DNA of 23,205 nt from a virus, in IMG/VR virus record IMGVR_UViG_3300044620_001448, positions 1 to 23,205 of that record. The stretch is one strand, 5' to 3'. The position numbers were made by a program, and so were the translations under genes. This document shows, one piece after another, positions 1,874-16,045 of this stretch. The number at the start of each line of letters is the position of its first letter. The stretch's first letter is position 1. The notes beneath the pieces are model-generated. The model was not told where the DNA came from and did no database searches. It worked only from the letters and a program-made list of their open reading frames with translations.

Positions 1874-2068
1874 TCAGATGTCCTTGCAGGTTGCGTCGAT
1901 CAGTTCGACAAGGTTAGCCCCCGTGACCGCCACACGATCATCCGTGGTTTCAGCCAGTGCCGCCGCATGAAAGGCACGGGCTTGAAGCGTCGCATCACAG
2001 GTCGCGCTTCTTGGCGCGGTTGCGCATCCGCTGACGAGCAGCGTCAGGATCAGTATGGACAGGCGCAT
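1874..2068 (-). CDS. Rz1-like outer-membrane lipoprotein (o-spanin)
   Basis: This encodes 64 residues. A short hydrophobic signal sequence (MRLSILILTLLVSGC) ends in a clear lipobox LVSG-C, so the mature protein would be a lipidated outer-membrane peptide of about 50 residues. It begins inside the Rz-like gene in another reading frame, overlapping it by 74 bases, which is the typical embedded Rz/Rz1 arrangement. A strong Shine-Dalgarno (AAGGAGG) precedes the ATG. Known role of the family: it bridges to the inner-membrane partner and fuses the two membranes in the last step of lysis. Unlike lambda Rz1 it is not proline-rich, so the assignment rests on the lipobox, size and overlap. Confidence 0.72.
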   Translation of the reverse strand: MRLSILILTLLVSGCATAPRSATCDATLQARAFHAAALAETTDDRVAVTGANLVELIDATCKDI

Positions 2069-2216
2069 TTGCGGCCTCCTTCATTGCCTCTTGATATTCA
2101 GTGGCATCGCGCAGGTCGGCCCGCTGGCTGGCATCTCTGCGCCCTGTGACGTAAGCGGTCACGATGGCGGCAATCGCCCCCAGCCCGGCCACGATGTACG
2201 GCCAAAGCTCGATCAT
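1995..2216 (-). CDS. Rz-like inner-membrane spanin (i-spanin)
   Basis: This encodes 73 residues. There is one N-terminal membrane anchor (residues ~4-23, LWPYIVAGLGAIAAIVTAYV) followed by a charged helical domain rich in Arg, Asp, Ala and Glu, ending in a basic tail (RQRMRNRAKKRDL). This topology and the out-of-frame lipoprotein gene embedded in its 3' part fit an i-spanin, though it is short for one (lambda Rz has 153 residues). It is coupled to the holin gene by an ATGA overlap. Its anchor resembles the anchor of the protein encoded at 2979-3209, suggesting an old duplication. A short accessory holin is the main alternative. Confidence 0.62.
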   Translation of the reverse strand: MIELWPYIVAGLGAIAAIVTAYVTGRRDASQRADLRDATEYQEAMKEAANAPVHTDPDAARQRMRNRAKKRDL

Positions 2217-8083: not shown

Positions 8084-8667
8084 AGCGCCTCGCGCGCCGA
8101 AAGGCTGAAGTCGTGCTTGTCCACTCTGCCAATGACAGTCGGGATGGCCGAGGTGGCGCGAAGTAAAACGCCGGGGTTAACAACGTTCAACGCTGCGTTA
8201 TCTGCCGGGCTGGTGCGCAGCGCCGGGACAAAGCTGAGCGTGGCAGCCCCGGCGACGGGAACTGCGTTGGCCGTCACCCGGTAAAGCCGGGTATTTGAAC
8301 CAGTGCCCAGCGAAAAGAAATCACCCGCGCGCAATCCGGTGCCCGCCCAGCCATCTGTCACAAGGGTTGTACCCGCCTGTCCCGCCCCGTTTACCTGCGG
8401 GGTGCCAAGTCCAGTCGGGTTCAAGATGGACGGATCGCGGAAGATGAAGGCAGTAACCGGCCCGCCCAAGGCGTCAAAGAAGGCCGAAAGCGTGCGGGCG
8501 TTTTGCCCTTGGGTTGTGGCGAACTCGATCTGATATTGCCACCAGCGCCCGCCCCAATCCTGCACTTGCTGGGTTCCGGTGAACGGGCTTGATTTTGTGG
8601 CAGTGGCAGATGCCAAGTATCGCTCGACCCGGCGAACCAAGGTGATTGGAAGCTCTGGCGCGGTCAT
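8080..8667 (-). CDS. distal tail protein-like (position of GTA g12)
   Basis: This encodes 195 residues. It contains LVRRVERYLASATATKSSPF, QVQDWGGRWWQYQIEFA and FFDALGGPVTAFIFRDPS, then a beta-rich loop region (TTLVTDGWAGTG, GDFFSLGTGSNTRLYRVTA) and a C-terminal RVDKHDFSLSAREAL. The WGGRWWxYxIEF strand and the AFIFRDPS element are typical of small phage baseplate/distal-tail proteins that cap the tube and carry the hub. It directly follows the tape measure gene, with a TGATG overlap, which supports the role. An exact Pfam assignment cannot be made by eye. Confidence 0.76.
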   Translation of the reverse strand: MTAPELPITLVRRVERYLASATATKSSPFTGTQQVQDWGGRWWQYQIEFATTQGQNARTLSAFFDALGGPVTAFIFRDPSILNPTGLGTPQVNGAGQAGTTLVTDGWAGTGLRAGDFFSLGTGSNTRLYRVTANAVPVAGAATLSFVPALRTSPADNAALNVVNPGVLLRATSAIPTVIGRVDKHDFSLSAREAL

Positions 8668-10391
8668 CAGTACCCCCGCGCGGTCGCGGCGCGGCTGGCC
8701 TGCACAGACCGCTGGATAATGCTTGGCAAGGCCTCTTGAAGGCGGCGGGCAATCAGCGCGTCCGTTCCCTCAACCGCCCCACGCGCGTCAATGGTTATCG
8801 CCACGCTCGGGGCCGCTGCGGCAGAACGCAGGGCGGTGTTGTTGGTGACGTAGCCATTCCCGCCCATAGTGACAATCTCCGGCCCGTTTTCGCCGACCAT
8901 GTAGGACCGCCCCGCCAAGACAGGCCCGCCAGAGGCACGTCCGCCGCCGAAAAAGGGGGCCAGGACTGCGCCAAGCCCGCCTTCCCCGAAAAGCCCCAAA
9001 TTCAGCCCCTGGAACGCATTGCGGGCCAGTTGATCGGCCAGACTGGCGAACAGGTCCGCCAGCGCCTCCTTGCCGGACTTCGAACCCGTCACAATACCCG
9101 CGAACACGTCTTCGAACCGCTTGTTAAGCTGCTCTGCAAAGCGATCCGTTTCCTGCATCTGCTCCTGGAACAGCATCATGGCCTGCACCGCTTCCGGCGA
9201 CTCCTCAACCACCGACCGAAGCGGGCTGCACACGCGCGCGGGCACGGCTGCCCGGCTTGCGGTGTTGCGGCGGGCCAGATCGTTCTGCGCCCCTGTTCCG
9301 CCCGGTGCCCGGCTGCCGTAAGCGTCCAAAGCCTGCCCGCCGGGCGAAAACTCAAATCCCATTACCGCCAGCGCAGCCTCGGCGGCTTCCCGGTTTTCCT
9401 GCGCCAAAGCCGCCGCCTGTGTGCGCAAATTGGCATACAGGCCATAGGCGTCCGCAAGGGAGGCATTCATGTCGGCAACCGCATCGGCAGCGCCGCCGGT
9501 TTCCGTGGCGACCTCGCCTGCGCGCTTGGCCATTTCTCCGAGCGCAAAAGCCGACTCACGCAATGGCTCTGGCAGTTCCCGCCCGGACGGAACAAGGGCC
9601 TCCATAACGGCCAGCGCTTCGCTTGCGGCTGCCGCTACATCCCGCACGCCCTCGGATCGCCCAACTGCGTCAATGGCGTCGGCCAGCATCAAGGCTTTTT
9701 CTGCGGTCAGCCCTATCGCCGATTCCGCTTGCCTCAAGCCTTCTTCTGTACCGGCCAGAGTAATTTTAAGGCCAACTGCATTCGGTGCGCTCTCAAGCGC
9801 TTTCCGCGCAATCTCCACTTCGGCAAAGCGGTCCCGAACCTCTTGCAGGGGCGCGTTCAGCGCAGTGACGGTGGACAGAAGCTCATCGAAAGTCTTGCCA
9901 AGGGCCACCCCGGCCAGATAGTCGGAAAAGCTGCGAACATCTTCCGCGAACTCGCCGAACTTTGCGGTCAACTCCGCCGTGGACGAGGCTGCGGTAAGGA
10001 CGAGCGCCTCATATTCATCAAGGCCCTTCGCGAACTCAGAAACCGCCTTGGACGCAGACTGCGCCTCTTCGCCAGCCCCGAACAGCGCCTTGACGACCGG
10101 AATCAGAATTGCCGCCGTCGTGCCGAGCGCAATGCCCAGCAGGCCGAACCCGGAAAGCAATTGCGGCAACTGTTGCGCCAATGCCTGCGATGCAGATGTT
10201 CCGGCCCCCACCTGTACGGCAAAGTCCTGAATCTGGAAGCCAAGGTTTTGCAACCCGCCGCTGGGCATCCGCGAAGCCCGGTCCAGATCGCGGAAGGCGG
10301 CATTGCCCGCCGCGCCGATCCCGGTCAGTTCTTCCCGAACCTGTTTCCCGCCGACAGCGGCAAGACGAATGGAAACCTGTTTTTCAGTCAT
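8667..10391 (-). CDS. tail length tape measure protein
   Basis: This encodes 574 residues from the ATG at 10391, chosen over the ATG at 10403 because GGAAAG lies six bases before it and it overlaps the chaperone stop (ATGACTGA). It starts TEKQVSIRLAAVGG with a helical N-terminus, has a hydrophobic stretch ~82-105 (LLSGFGLLGIALGTTAAILIPVV), long Ala/Glu-rich helices, and a C-terminal domain with GGGRASGGPVLAGRSYMVGE then NGPEIVTMG, the usual tape-measure ending. It fixes tail length and is expelled during DNA entry. Residues ~375-400 (TASRAAVPARVCSPLRS) look unlike their surroundings and may be read out of the ancestral frame. It is short compared with lambda gpH (853 aa), predicting a shorter tail. 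Confidence 0.9.
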   Translation of the reverse strand: MTEKQVSIRLAAVGGKQVREELTGIGAAGNAAFRDLDRASRMPSGGLQNLGFQIQDFAVQVGAGTSASQALAQQLPQLLSGFGLLGIALGTTAAILIPVVKALFGAGEEAQSASKAVSEFAKGLDEYEALVLTAASSTAELTAKFGEFAEDVRSFSDYLAGVALGKTFDELLSTVTALNAPLQEVRDRFAEVEIARKALESAPNAVGLKITLAGTEEGLRQAESAIGLTAEKALMLADAIDAVGRSEGVRDVAAAASEALAVMEALVPSGRELPEPLRESAFALGEMAKRAGEVATETGGAADAVADMNASLADAYGLYANLRTQAAALAQENREAAEAALAVMGFEFSPGGQALDAYGSRAPGGTGAQNDLARRNTASRAAVPARVCSPLRSVVEESPEAVQAMMLFQEQMQETDRFAEQLNKRFEDVFAGIVTGSKSGKEALADLFASLADQLARNAFQGLNLGLFGEGGLGAVLAPFFGGGRASGGPVLAGRSYMVGENGPEIVTMGGNGYVTNNTALRSAAAAPSVAITIDARGAVEGTDALIARRLQEALPSIIQRSVQASRAATARGY

Positions 10392-11045
10392 CCGACTTTC
10401 CATTCATCTGCCGCACCATGGCGGCTTCAATCGCGGGCAGCATTTCTGAGGCCAAAGCCTCGTCAACACCGGCAGCGCGGGCCATCGCCAGCGCCGCCGT
10501 CATATCGAAGCCGATCACCGCGCCCGGCATTGCCCTGACCTGTCCCCCAAGACGGGTTGCCAGTTCCCACACCTGCCAGCCCTCCCAAGTTTCTGGGCGG
10601 TGAACGATGTAGGCGCAGTTCTCGCAGGGTGACGGGCAAGAGCCGCAGTATTCAGCGCCCCCGCCTGGCAGGTAATGCCATTCGGCAAGGGCGCTCAGGC
10701 GTTTTTTTCCGCACTCACCAACAGGCCGCGCGTCACATATTCCGCTGAAAACTTCCGAGCGATGACGTAGTTGTCCATCAGCGCCTCGATCCATTCCGGG
10801 GAAGGCTCAATCACCTTCCCGTCGGCATCGCCCACGCCTTCCCATTCCAGAATGGCAAGTTTTGCCACCTCAACGGTCAGCGTAAAGAACCGCATGTCGG
10901 GCGAAACATCATCGGACAGCGCCCGCATCGCGGGGGCGGTGGACGCCGCCGCCATAATGGCAGAGGTCAGGGGGGCCACCCGAAGGCGCACACCGTCCGC
11001 GACATCAAGCCAATATGGCTGTTTTTCAAGATTGAGCCGGATCAT
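10384..11045 (-). CDS. tail assembly chaperone, long form by -1 frameshift (lambda GT type)
   Basis: The predicted product of about 220 residues is made when ribosomes slip back one base on the heptamer at 10707-10701 near the end of the short chaperone gene. After the slip, reading continues RLSALAEWHYLPGGG, a Cys cluster (YCGSCPSPCENC, spacing C-x2-C-x3-C-x2-C), then WEGWQVWELATRLGGQ and a helical C-terminus ending at 10384. The downstream frame alone has no credible start: the only upstream in-frame ATG (10794) lies antisense-like inside the first gene. In lambda and many siphoviruses the GT form loads onto the tape measure and recruits tube protein; it is absent from the finished virion. 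The gene order before the tape measure fits exactly. Confidence 0.82.
10695..11045 (-). CDS. tail assembly chaperone, short form (lambda G type)
   Basis: This encodes 116 residues ending SAEKNA at the TGA 10697-10695. The N-terminus (MIRLNLEKQPYWLDVADGVR) is beta-like, then helical (TSAIMAAASTAPAMRALSDD, FFTLTVEVAKLAILEWEGV, EWIEALMDNYVIARKFSAEY). The length, the position between tail tube and tape measure, and the frameshift site near the 3' end define the G-type chaperone, which coats the tape measure during tail assembly. It overlaps the previous gene by ATGA. The last codons before the stop carry A-AAA-AAC in the reading phase needed for simultaneous -1 slippage. Confidence 0.82.
   Translation of the reverse strand: MIRLNLEKQPYWLDVADGVRLRVAPLTSAIMAAASTAPAMRALSDDVSPDMRFFTLTVEVAKLAILEWEGVGDADGKVIEPSPEWIEALMDNYVIARKFSAEYVTRGLLVSAEKNA
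10701..10707 (-). promoter_or_regulatory. programmed -1 ribosomal frameshift heptamer A AAA AAC
   Basis: On the minus strand seven A residues preceded by GG and followed by C are read in zero frame as GAA AAA AAC GCC TGA. The heptamer A-AAA-AAC has the classical X-XXY-YYZ phase, and the -1 frame continues open for 105 codons to 10384. The zero-frame stop lies only two codons beyond. Slippage is therefore expected to give a minor fused product, as in lambda G/GT. I did not identify a clear downstream stimulatory pseudoknot; GC-rich sequence just 3' (10700-10650) could form one. Confidence 0.8.
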
Positions 11046-11251
11046 TCTTCACCATGATGTTTTGTGTCTGTTACGACCAAGTCCAGCCAAGCCGCCTGAA
11101 CGGTAATCTCGGCAGACACCGCGAACGGCTTGGCTTCAATCGGATGAATAACAATTTTTGTCACACCCATAAGCTGTTTACCGTCCACCAGAACCCTTGT
11201 GTTGGTCGAAGTCCCGTCGCTGATAATCTGCACATGTCCTGCGCGGCGCAT
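11042..11251 (-). CDS. small phage protein between tail tube and chaperone genes
   Basis: This encodes 69 residues. It reads as a compact beta protein: HVQIISDGTSTNTRVLVDGK, GVTKIVIHPIEAKPFAVSAE, ITVQAAWLDLVVTDTK. Its ATG overlaps the stop of the tail-tube gene (TGATG) and its stop overlaps the chaperone start (ATGA), so all three are translationally coupled. I do not recognise a family. The location suggests a tail-assembly or tube-associated role; it could be a small adaptor or minor tube component. It has no membrane segment and no cysteine. Confidence 0.72.
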   Translation of the reverse strand: MRRAGHVQIISDGTSTNTRVLVDGKQLMGVTKIVIHPIEAKPFAVSAEITVQAAWLDLVVTDTKHHGEE

Positions 11252-12192
11252 CAGTAGCTCGCAACCGTGTTGACAAGAACGACCGTTGCCATTCGGGCGG
11301 GCGACGTTGCCCGTGCGGCTTGCCAGTCAAACGTGACCTGCATCCCAGATGGGCCGGAAATCTCCCGGCGCGGTCGCGGCAAATACACCGCGTGGGCGGT
11401 GATCGTAAGACTGGCATTCGCGCCAATGGTCCACGAAAACTCAAGCGAGCAGGGAACGCCGTTGACGGCTTGGGTCAGCAGGGTGGTATCCGCAAACCGG
11501 GCAACGATGTTGCCATTCATCATCGCCTTTGACGGGTCCAAGCCGTCAATCCGTCCATCCGACCGGATGGTTTCGACCCGGTCCAGGTTGTTCATATAGT
11601 TGACTTGGGCGGACACGATGTTCGCCAGCGTGGCCCCGTCCCGGCGAATGGCCCCGTTGAAGTGGCCGAACCGGGTAAGGGTGGCAAGCTGCGCAAGTGT
11701 GCCCGCTGCTGTGCTTGTGCCCAGCGTTTCGCCTTGGGCAATCAGGCCCACGGTCGCCTGCAAAAGGCCTGACCGAGTCATGCTGAACGACAACCGATCC
11801 GCCATAACCCCTGAATACATCGGGAAGCTGGGCACATCGGGCATTTGCACCTCAATCGAGGCGCTGGGAAGCGTCCAGTTGCCCGAGTGGAAGGTGTGGG
11901 TCTTGGGCGTGGTCCCGGTCGTGGTGGGCTGGCCGAACAGCAGTTTCAGCCAATACCCAATGCCATCCGTGTCAATCGGAATTACATGATCGCCGTCCGC
12001 CGTCAGGGCATCCCGGATTGGCGCAACCGGGTCGCGGCCAAGCCCAAGAATGTCATCATCCAGCAACGGCTGCCCCGCCGAAAGCGCCGTGGAAATGAAA
12101 GGCAGTTGAGTGTATCCGCTGGCGGGCGAGGTGCCGTAGACGGTTTCATAGGCAAACGCGGTGACGGTTCTCGCGCCCTGCTGACGTGCCAT
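11251..12192 (-). CDS. major tail (tube) protein
   Basis: This encodes 313 residues. It starts ARQQGARTVTAFAYETVYG and continues with PFISTALSAGQPLLDDDILG, YWLKLLFGQPTTTG, FTIGANASLTI-like strands and a conserved-type ending RREISGPSGMQVTFDWQ. That order (ETxYGT near the N-terminus, a region of inserted Ig-like strands, and PSGMQVTFDW near the end) is typical of siphovirus tail tube proteins, which stack as hexamers around the tape measure. AGGAG lies nine bases upstream of the ATG, one of the better ribosome-binding sites in the operon, as expected for an abundant protein. The cluster position after the tail terminator supports the call. Confidence 0.87.
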   Translation of the reverse strand: MARQQGARTVTAFAYETVYGTSPASGYTQLPFISTALSAGQPLLDDDILGLGRDPVAPIRDALTADGDHVIPIDTDGIGYWLKLLFGQPTTTGTTPKTHTFHSGNWTLPSASIEVQMPDVPSFPMYSGVMADRLSFSMTRSGLLQATVGLIAQGETLGTSTAAGTLAQLATLTRFGHFNGAIRRDGATLANIVSAQVNYMNNLDRVETIRSDGRIDGLDPSKAMMNGNIVARFADTTLLTQAVNGVPCSLEFSWTIGANASLTITAHAVYLPRPRREISGPSGMQVTFDWQAARATSPARMATVVLVNTVASY

Positions 12193-13954: not shown

Positions 13955-15379
13955 TCACGCGCCGGGGTTCTTCCAGCCCCCGCGGAAGTCGGTGGCCCCA
14001 CAGCCAAAGTCGGATTCAACCTTGAACCAGACGCCTTGGCTGTCAAACGGCGTATCGGTGGTAACGCGCGGCCCGGCTGCGCCGCGAAGATAGCCGTAAG
14101 CAAAGTTTGCGGTCCGCATCGGGTCAGCAAACACATACCAGGAGTTGTCCGTGATGTAGGGCGTCACCACGACGCGCATGGTGCCGGGGAACGGGTTCAC
14201 GTTGCCCGCCTGTTGGGCTTGAATCGGGGACAAAATCTGCTGAGCCTCCGTTTCTTTCAGCGGGCCAACCAGAAGAATGGCTGCGGGCAGATTCAAGAAC
14301 TGCCCATCCGTTCGCCCCGCCGCCGAAGGAAGCCCGCGACGCTGGCGCAGCGCAGCGCGCGCCGCAGTAAGCGAGGCAATCGTGATTGCAGCACCACTCG
14401 CCGCCTTGGTGTTGTCCGCCGCGTTCGTGTTGAACGCCTGACGCCCGGTTTCAAGCAGAGTCGGCCCGTCGGCGTTTGCGCCGGAGAGGAACATCCCTTG
14501 CCAGAAAGCCTGTTCTTCTGTGGTCGCCACGGTGTTTGCGCGGTCAGCCAAGAGCCGGTCAATCGCGCCGAGATCATCATTGATCAGGGTTTGGCGCGTG
14601 ACTTGCAGCGCAATACCGTAAGGCCGCAGCGACAAGCTTTCTTTCTTGTCGCTGGTCGTGCCGTACTGAATACGCCCGCCTTCGGGTATCTCCTGCAGAA
14701 GAGGAATGTCCCCCATCGCCGAGACTGGATGTGGACGGAAATCGTTGAAGTCCATCCGCATAGAGATTTCGCGATAGGTCGGCGCAGCCTTGGCATAGGT
14801 ATCCAGAAGCCGTTTATTCAGCGCGTTTTCCAAGACAGAGGGGAAATCGCTGGTCGAGTGAAAAGCGGCCTCAACGGCTTGCAGGCGGTCATAAGGCGTC
14901 CGCATCGGGCCGCGATAATCAGCAGCAGTTGCAGCCATTTCCACCAAGGACATGCTCATGTACGGGCGCGCCGACCCATGATCCGGCTCACAGCGCCCGA
15001 GTTGCGCGGTGAGAGCCGAAGCCATAGCGGTTCGCCGGGTATCACGCTCGTCGCGCAGAATGGTGGCGGTCGGACGGCCTTTCATGGGAACGTCCGCATC
15101 GCCCTTTTCCTTCCAAGCTGCGGTGATTTTGTCCAGCGCGGCTTCCAGCGATGCGCCCTCGTCAATCAAGCCGGTGGCAAAATCGCTTGGCAAGCCAGCA
15201 GCCGCCGTGGCGTCGAGGATGCGCCGAACGCGCTGGCGCTCGTGCTTCATAAGCGCTGCCTGCGCAGATTCAGCGCGCGCCGCCTTCGGATCGGTCGCGG
15301 GCGCTTCGGGCTGGCCGACCACGCCCTTTTCGTCATCTGCGGAGATAACCTCCGCAGCAGTATCGGGTTTCGCACTCAT
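13955..15379 (-). CDS. nested scaffold-capsid product from an internal start
   Basis: Inside the protease-capsid gene, AAGGAG (minus strand, 15391-15386) lies six bases before an in-frame ATG at 15379 (codon 223), giving a 474-residue product beginning SAKPDTAAEV. This is a better ribosome-binding site than most in the operon and lies exactly at the border between the protease and the scaffold-like domain. In lambda, Nu3 scaffold is likewise made from an internal start inside the protease gene C. The shorter product would supply capsid subunits in large excess over protease. It is a prediction from sequence; no protein evidence is available here. Confidence 0.65.
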   Translation of the reverse strand: MSAKPDTAAEVISADDEKGVVGQPEAPATDPKAARAESAQAALMKHERQRVRRILDATAAAGLPSDFATGLIDEGASLEAALDKITAAWKEKGDADVPMKGRPTATILRDERDTRRTAMASALTAQLGRCEPDHGSARPYMSMSLVEMAATAADYRGPMRTPYDRLQAVEAAFHSTSDFPSVLENALNKRLLDTYAKAAPTYREISMRMDFNDFRPHPVSAMGDIPLLQEIPEGGRIQYGTTSDKKESLSLRPYGIALQVTRQTLINDDLGAIDRLLADRANTVATTEEQAFWQGMFLSGANADGPTLLETGRQAFNTNAADNTKAASGAAITIASLTAARAALRQRRGLPSAAGRTDGQFLNLPAAILLVGPLKETEAQQILSPIQAQQAGNVNPFPGTMRVVVTPYITDNSWYVFADPMRTANFAYGYLRGAAGPRVTTDTPFDSQGVWFKVESDFGCGATDFRGGWKNPGA

Positions 15380-16045
15380 GGCGATCTCCTTGTGCTGGCG
15401 GGGGACTCCCGCGATCATGGCCAGAATGGCCTCTGGTTCCGGGGCAAGCCCCAGGCTCTCGGACGCCGCGCGCAACTTTTGCGGCGCGTGGGCGTACATA
15501 CGGTAATCAAAGGTCGCGGCAGGCTCGGCTTCCGCGTCTTCCGTTGACGTGGCAAAACCCATTGCGACAGCCTTTTCACCGCTCAGGATGGTTTCCTCGC
15601 GCATTATGGCGCGAGCCTCATCCCGGCTGATTCCGGCGCGGGCGGCGTAAACCTCGGCATAGGCATCGCTCATGACGCCAAGAAGCTCGGCTTCCTTCAG
15701 GTGATCGTCTTCGGTGCCGCGACCGGCGGTGTAAGGCGTGGCCGGATCGTGTATCAGCATCCACGCGCCACGCCGCATAATGATTTCATCGCCCGACATG
15801 GCGATCAAAGACGCGGCAGAGGCCGCAACGGAATCCACAACGACCGTCACACTGCCGGGGTAGTCCCGCAGCGCGGTGTAGATGGCCTGCCCCTCGGTTG
15901 CGACCCCGCCGCCAGAATTGATCCGAACCGTAATATCGCCCCGCATCGAGGCCAAATTGTCGCGCACCTCCTTGGCAGTGAAATAGTCCTCACCCCAAAA
16001 CGACACGCCAACAGTGCCATACAGCACCAACTCATTCGGCTGCAT
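13955..16045 (-). CDS. fused ClpP-like prohead protease, scaffold and major capsid protein
   Basis: This encodes 696 residues in one uninterrupted frame. Residues ~1-185 are a ClpP-type serine protease: INSGGGVATEGQAIYTAL, then DSVAASAASLIAMSGDE with probable nucleophile Ser76, and WMLIHDP with His99. Residues ~223-330 are charged, helical and scaffold-like (KAARAESAQAALMKHERQRV, ASLEAALDKITAAWKEKGD). From ~330 to the end is an HK97-fold capsid protein (SDFPSVLENALNKRLLDTYA, PHPVSAMGDIPLLQEIPEGG, DSQGVWFKVESDFGCGATDF). A GGAGGTGA site precedes the ATG, which overlaps the portal gene by 14 bases. The protease would cut scaffold from capsid during maturation. Similar fusions are known in some alphaproteobacterial phages; an internal start is also present. 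Confidence 0.9.
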   Translation of the reverse strand: MQPNELVLYGTVGVSFWGEDYFTAKEVRDNLASMRGDITVRINSGGGVATEGQAIYTALRDYPGSVTVVVDSVAASAASLIAMSGDEIIMRRGAWMLIHDPATPYTAGRGTEDDHLKEAELLGVMSDAYAEVYAARAGISRDEARAIMREETILSGEKAVAMGFATSTEDAEAEPAATFDYRMYAHAPQKLRAASESLGLAPEPEAILAMIAGVPRQHKEIAMSAKPDTAAEVISADDEKGVVGQPEAPATDPKAARAESAQAALMKHERQRVRRILDATAAAGLPSDFATGLIDEGASLEAALDKITAAWKEKGDADVPMKGRPTATILRDERDTRRTAMASALTAQLGRCEPDHGSARPYMSMSLVEMAATAADYRGPMRTPYDRLQAVEAAFHSTSDFPSVLENALNKRLLDTYAKAAPTYREISMRMDFNDFRPHPVSAMGDIPLLQEIPEGGRIQYGTTSDKKESLSLRPYGIALQVTRQTLINDDLGAIDRLLADRANTVATTEEQAFWQGMFLSGANADGPTLLETGRQAFNTNAADNTKAASGAAITIASLTAARAALRQRRGLPSAAGRTDGQFLNLPAAILLVGPLKETEAQQILSPIQAQQAGNVNPFPGTMRVVVTPYITDNSWYVFADPMRTANFAYGYLRGAAGPRVTTDTPFDSQGVWFKVESDFGCGATDFRGGWKNPGA

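Follow-up and report, generated by a model that had tools for sequence, protein, structure and literature searches.

Is the tail assembly chaperone region of this phage, in which a short open frame is overlapped near its 3′ end by a second frame in the −1 register, expressed as two genes or as one gene with a programmed frameshift? The window analyzed here, which is the whole of IMG/VR record IMGVR_UViG_3300044620_001448 (23,205 bases), belongs to a siphophage-like virus. Its structural operon lies on the minus strand, in the order of terminase, portal, protease–capsid fusion, connector genes, tail tube, chaperone, tape measure, and distal tail genes, and the homologues indicate that the host is probably an alphaproteobacterium. 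We propose, with a probability of roughly 0.95, that the tail-assembly-chaperone gene pair is expressed by programmed −1 ribosomal frameshifting.

Architecture of the chaperone locus

The chaperone pair follows the tail tube gene and immediately precedes the tape measure gene (Table 1). The 0 frame of the chaperone closes with GAA AAA AAC GCC TGA, in which the stop codon is TGA 10697-10695. Starting with CGC 10701-10699, the −1 frame is open for exactly 105 codons. These positions agree in full with those of the earlier note, which had placed the heptamer at 10707-10701 in the exact slippage phase and had given the −1 frame a length of 105 codons. The placement of the heptamer is more than chance would provide: the 3430 codon-phase positions of eight structural genes in the window contain just two in-phase heptamers of the X_XXY_YYZ type (Y = A or T), and AAAAAAC occurs only once. 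At the other end of the −1 extension, the tape measure ATG 10391 overlaps it by 8 nt, and the in-frame ATG 10403, located further upstream, is also possible as an alternative start of the tape measure gene.

Table 1. Features of the chaperone region, in coordinates of the window
Feature	Position	Strand	Basis or remark
Tail tube protein gene	11251..12192	-	PF18906 Phage_tube_2, E=3.3e-52; upstream of chaperone
G-like tail assembly chaperone, 0 frame, 116 aa	10695..11045	-	phrog_313, E=2e-9; conserved in about 70 loci
ATG, likely gene-finder start of downstream gene; judged unused	10792..10794	-	absent in L070-L073
Slippery heptamer A_AAA_AAC	10701..10707	-	read directly; AAA and AAC are in-frame codons
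T-like −1 frame extension, 105 codons + stop TGA 10386-10384	10384..10701	-	DUF7697 (PF24752), E=1.3e-20
Putative stimulatory hairpin	10654..10695	-	arms 10695-10684 / 10665-10654; inner stem 10680-10676 with 10670-10666
Cys cluster C-x2-C-x3-C-x2-C in −1 extension	10615..10647	-	29-row alignment
Tape measure protein gene	8667..10391	-	phrog_1538 tail length tape measure, E=1.8e-22

A 69-aa ORF (11042-11251, minus strand) is located between the tail tube and chaperone genes and overlaps at both ends. No homologue of this ORF was found in any of about 150 fetched loci, and in the relative L073 the tail tube gene adjoins the chaperone directly; the ORF therefore looks like an insertion in this phage. 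Elsewhere in the window, a 696-aa ORF (13955-16045, minus strand) spans both the head maturation protease and the major head protein without a change of frame (phrog_133, phrog_4523). An Rz-like spanin ORF (1995-2216, minus strand; phrog_1026) overlaps a 64-aa lipoprotein-like ORF in another frame (1874-2068), and the two are likely to be a two-gene spanin pair near the endolysin (2416-2982).

What are the two products? The short product was assigned to the tail assembly chaperone family via phrog_313, and the −1 extension is a member of DUF7697, scoring 73.4 bits versus the curated cut-off of 27. Pfam gave no match for the short chaperone G, and no match to lambda G or T. In the alignment of the extension, three residues of the Cys cluster are invariant and the fourth is present in more than 90% of the rows, with a longer spacing in a few distant members. 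This Cys4 cluster is probably a zinc-binding metal knuckle. The AlphaFold models are confident, with pLDDT values of 89.7 for G and 90.9 for the extension. In the fold search of the G model, the HK97 chaperone 2ob9 was the sole tail chaperone of the PDB to appear, with a TM score of about 0.4 and a non-significant E value of 4.0. The PDB fold search of T yielded nothing, and sequence searches for solved structures yielded none for either G or T. Among viral models, the best fold matches of T include the tape measure chaperones of enterobacterial phages, with E values of about 0.04. In these searches, no significant sequence or fold kinship to the lambda or HK97 tail chaperones was found.

Conservation of the slip site and the frame of evolution

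We compared 34 viral or phage representatives, which are non-redundant and thinned to under about 85% identity, and 80 bacterial-genome loci, which were found by patterns built on the −1 protein, with the heptamer not used. In counts that are not independent, the homologues being related to one another, an in-phase heptamer occupies the same junction in all 34 representatives (28 AAAAAAC, 5 GGGAAAC, and 1 AAAAAAA) and in 79 of the 80 genome loci (75, 3, and 1, respectively), while the 80th locus has Ns next to the slip site. The codons at the site are GAA-AAA-AAC in 28, GAG-GGA-AAC in 5, and GAA-AAA-AAA in 1 of the 34 homologues. Outside the heptamer, in the pooled representatives, GAA accounts for 41% of the Glu codons, AAA for 28% of the Lys codons, and GGA for 8% of the Gly codons. 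The site codons are thus conserved despite being minority choices elsewhere in the same genes, which is more than chance would produce. The earlier note had suggested the slip site of homologous phages as a check, and both the heptamer and the −1 overlap are kept there.

Two homologues have no usable in-phase heptamer, owing to one extra A in L038 and a local deletion in L048; each of the two could be a sequencing error or a true change. In L038 (3000-3729), the eight A's at the slip site merge the chaperone and the extension into one 242-aa frame, which may mean that frameshifting was genuinely lost or that the homopolymer was misread in sequencing. The uninterrupted reading of L038 is what might be expected if a sequencing error had broken one continuous gene in the window. 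However, over 100 loci, each sequenced independently and some of them from isolate genomes, show the same A7 (or GGGAAA) break, and the probability of such an error is negligible.

The 0-frame stop, by comparison with the slip site, is labile. It lies 6 nt after the heptamer in the window and in about a quarter of the tree rows, while in most members the 0 frame continues for a further 60-110 nt, through the hairpin described below. The position of the stop has changed about six times on the tree, and at least three of these changes are forced by well-supported branches. The slip site persists across the tree and the hairpin persists in most members, so the conserved unit is the slip signal rather than the place of termination.

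Does the downstream frame have its own start? If the region consisted of two separate genes, then translation of the downstream frame would begin at ATG 10794 or follow from re-initiation once the 0-frame stop had been reached. This ATG does exist: before the heptamer, the −1 frame of the window contains no other ATG, GTG, or TTG, and mechanical ORF calling yields a 136-aa ORF. The claim of the earlier note that the downstream frame lacks a start is therefore literally incorrect for the window, but the ATG is not conserved. In L070-L073, the four relatives nearest to the window (G identity 64-66%), the −1 frame contains no start codon, and 54 of the 79 genome loci have no ATG, GTG, or TTG in the open −1 stretch upstream of the heptamer. 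Moreover, in several homologues (L052, L075, L003, and L064, and, among the genome loci, L092 and L145) a stop shuts the −1 frame directly at the heptamer, within 0-15 nt of it in the former group, and inspection by eye revealed no properly spaced Shine-Dalgarno-like sequence before ATG 10794.

The substitutions provide a further distinction. In an ungapped comparison of the window with L073, the differences upstream of the heptamer are distributed over the three 0-frame codon positions as 24/12/41, and those within the ORF overlap as 7/4/12, while the differences downstream of the heptamer are distributed over the −1-frame positions as 15/12/43. The third-position bias thus switches frame at the heptamer, from the 0 frame before it, including the stretch of the 136-aa ORF, to the −1 frame after it. 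Because ATG 10794 is absent in the nearest relatives and the overlap segment evolves in the 0 frame, we judge that this codon is not used, and the two-gene arrangement is highly improbable. A gene finder would, as the earlier note warned, report two genes and give the second a wrong start at 10794. Conservation of the −1 protein sets in at its very first residue, R1, and the segment reads mostly R-[LI]-x-A-L-A-x-W-H-[FY]. As in pairs of the lambda G/GT kind, the downstream −1 frame is conserved as a protein and is judged to lack a start of its own, with the window itself carrying an unconserved ATG.

The hairpin downstream of the slip site

A hairpin of 11-12 bp begins 5-6 nt past the heptamer, and its fold in the window has a z-score of −3.18. 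In the synonymous-codon shuffle test, the z-score at this place is −2.33 for the window, with a mean of −1.45 over the 34 homologues, while the mean further downstream is −0.24 to +0.22; the excess folding is present only at the place of the hairpin. On an alignment built without reference to the structure, standard pairs occupy 85% of the cells, as compared to 45-60% when the arms are slid by 1-3 columns, and double-sided changes are found in 20 cells, as compared to 8.5 ± 1.9 in shuffles. The pairing scheme came from folding the window itself, a choice that favours this structure somewhat, and the RNAalifold consensus is only weakly stable; the covariation is therefore good but not overwhelming. 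Some members, such as L062 and L043, support the hairpin weakly, and Rfam gave no match.

The hairpin is predicted to stimulate frameshifting, and this function is likely. The earlier note had suggested a pseudoknot within 10700-10640 instead, but the longest helix between the loop and the downstream sequence is no longer than in the shuffled sequence, and a simple conserved hairpin takes its place. As a separate candidate, we considered a Shine-Dalgarno-like upstream stimulator; a weak dip in the pairing energy appears 11-14 nt upstream, with two offsets uninterpretable, and we do not claim it. We set aside an MFE-based measure of the spacer in 101 loci, since weak outer pairs blurred it.

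Could the RNA polymerase, rather than the ribosome, generate the fusion? In transcriptional slippage, the polymerase would add an A in the A7 run, and ordinary translation of the altered message would produce the fusion. The run of seven A's is in place, and poly-A runs can serve both mechanisms (PMC3711429), although A7 is shorter than the run length cited in the same paper (n > 7). In addition, the conserved hairpin at its distance of 5-6 nt fits a ribosomal stimulator, and the G_GGA_AAC variants (5/34 and 3/79) retain the tandem-slippage pattern without a homopolymer. Since these variants have no long homopolymer, transcriptional slippage is very unlikely to be the conserved mechanism.

Proposed mechanism and comparison with known systems

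On the comparative evidence, programmed −1 frameshifting is close to certain by bioinformatic standards. What was observed directly are the sequence elements and their conservation, the frame in which each segment evolves, and the covariation of the hairpin. The slippage itself, its efficiency, and its role in assembly are what we infer from the sequences, in the following manner. Most ribosomes would terminate at TGA 10697 after translating the 0 frame, yielding the short chaperone G. A minority would slip back by one base on A_AAA_AAC, aided by the hairpin, and would thereby enter the −1 frame and produce a 220-aa fusion ending in the Cys4 domain. By analogy with lambda, we expect each form to bind the tape measure protein and the −1-encoded domain to recruit the tail tube subunits. 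At related chaperone sites assayed by others, the frameshifting was 6-7% (PMC3711429). In E. coli, A_AAA_AAC is much less shift-prone than A_AAA_AAG (PMC5009743), and we counted this against the frameshift model here.

Nearly all homologues (L002-L156) carry AAC as the second slip codon, and AAG was absent from every examined site, in contrast to the preference of E. coli. A tentative explanation, less probable than not, is that a cassette might be standard in alphaproteobacterial prophages, in which A_AAA_AAC or G_GGA_AAC is separated by 5-6 nt from a hairpin of 11-12 bp, and that the slipperiness of AAC might reflect a decoding property of alphaproteobacteria, such as a modification of tRNA-Asn. 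The uniform AAC codon thus poses a small, testable question on decoding outside E. coli. A different idea, that AAC is used because the hosts have a dedicated tRNA-Lys CUU, was abandoned: the pattern was present in 6 and absent in 7 of 13 host genomes, in a search with a strict pattern that may miss genes.

The finding is real but ordinary, and is a correct further case of the well-known lambda G/GT-type tail-chaperone frameshift, since such frameshifting has been familiar in tailed phages for many years and the Rhodobacter relatives are already deposited with a joined gene. Its meaning mostly concerns annotation, as a gene finder would report two genes with a wrong second start and miss the 220-aa fusion. 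Alphaproteobacterial prophages very often carry this family, and the genome collection contains at least 562 stretches that match it; one well-supported site therefore helps to correct many records.

How does the locus compare with the known systems? The lambda G/GT tail chaperone frameshift is established, and so is its wide conservation among tailed phages (Xu, Hendrix and Duda 2004, as cited in the review PMC5009743). Like lambda G/GT, the present pair lies between the tail tube and tape measure genes, has a short 0-frame product with a −1 extension near its 3′ end, and uses an X_XXY_YYZ slippery site. Unlike lambda, it has A_AAA_AAC in place of the lambda site, a Cys4 DUF7697 extension, and a conserved hairpin, and Pfam detects no sequence kinship to lambda G or T. 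The earlier statement that the site mirrors lambda G/GT is thus valid for the position, the logic, and the function class, and we limit the likeness to these because no Pfam-level or significant fold kinship was found.

In Acinetobacter phage Loki (gp12/gp13), AAAAAAC adjoins the stop of the short chaperone (PMC5313236), as in the window, while the host class differs and the fold match of the T domain is weak (E = 4). The Caulobacter phages, which also infect alphaproteobacteria, were described in 2012 with the same heptamers at the frameshift of the chaperone preceding the tape measure gene, AAAAAAC in the phiCbK group and GGGAAAC in Colossus (PMC3556154); we compared them by the published description, and they were not found as close sequence relatives in this analysis. 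The Rhodobacter capsulatus phages RcBaka, RcKemmy, and RcOceanus (MW677509, MW677517, and MW677520) share with the window homologous G and T parts, the gene order, and the overlap of 8 nt between chaperone and tape measure genes, as seen in RcBaka. They differ in the use of G_GGA_AAC and in the 0-frame stop, which lies about 90 nt past the heptamer, as compared to 6 nt in the window. Their depositors annotate a chaperone joined from two pieces, the 722 nt of which equal the 240-aa fusion that we computed independently, and the paper on these phages refers to the chaperone frameshift as the usual state (PMC8601537).
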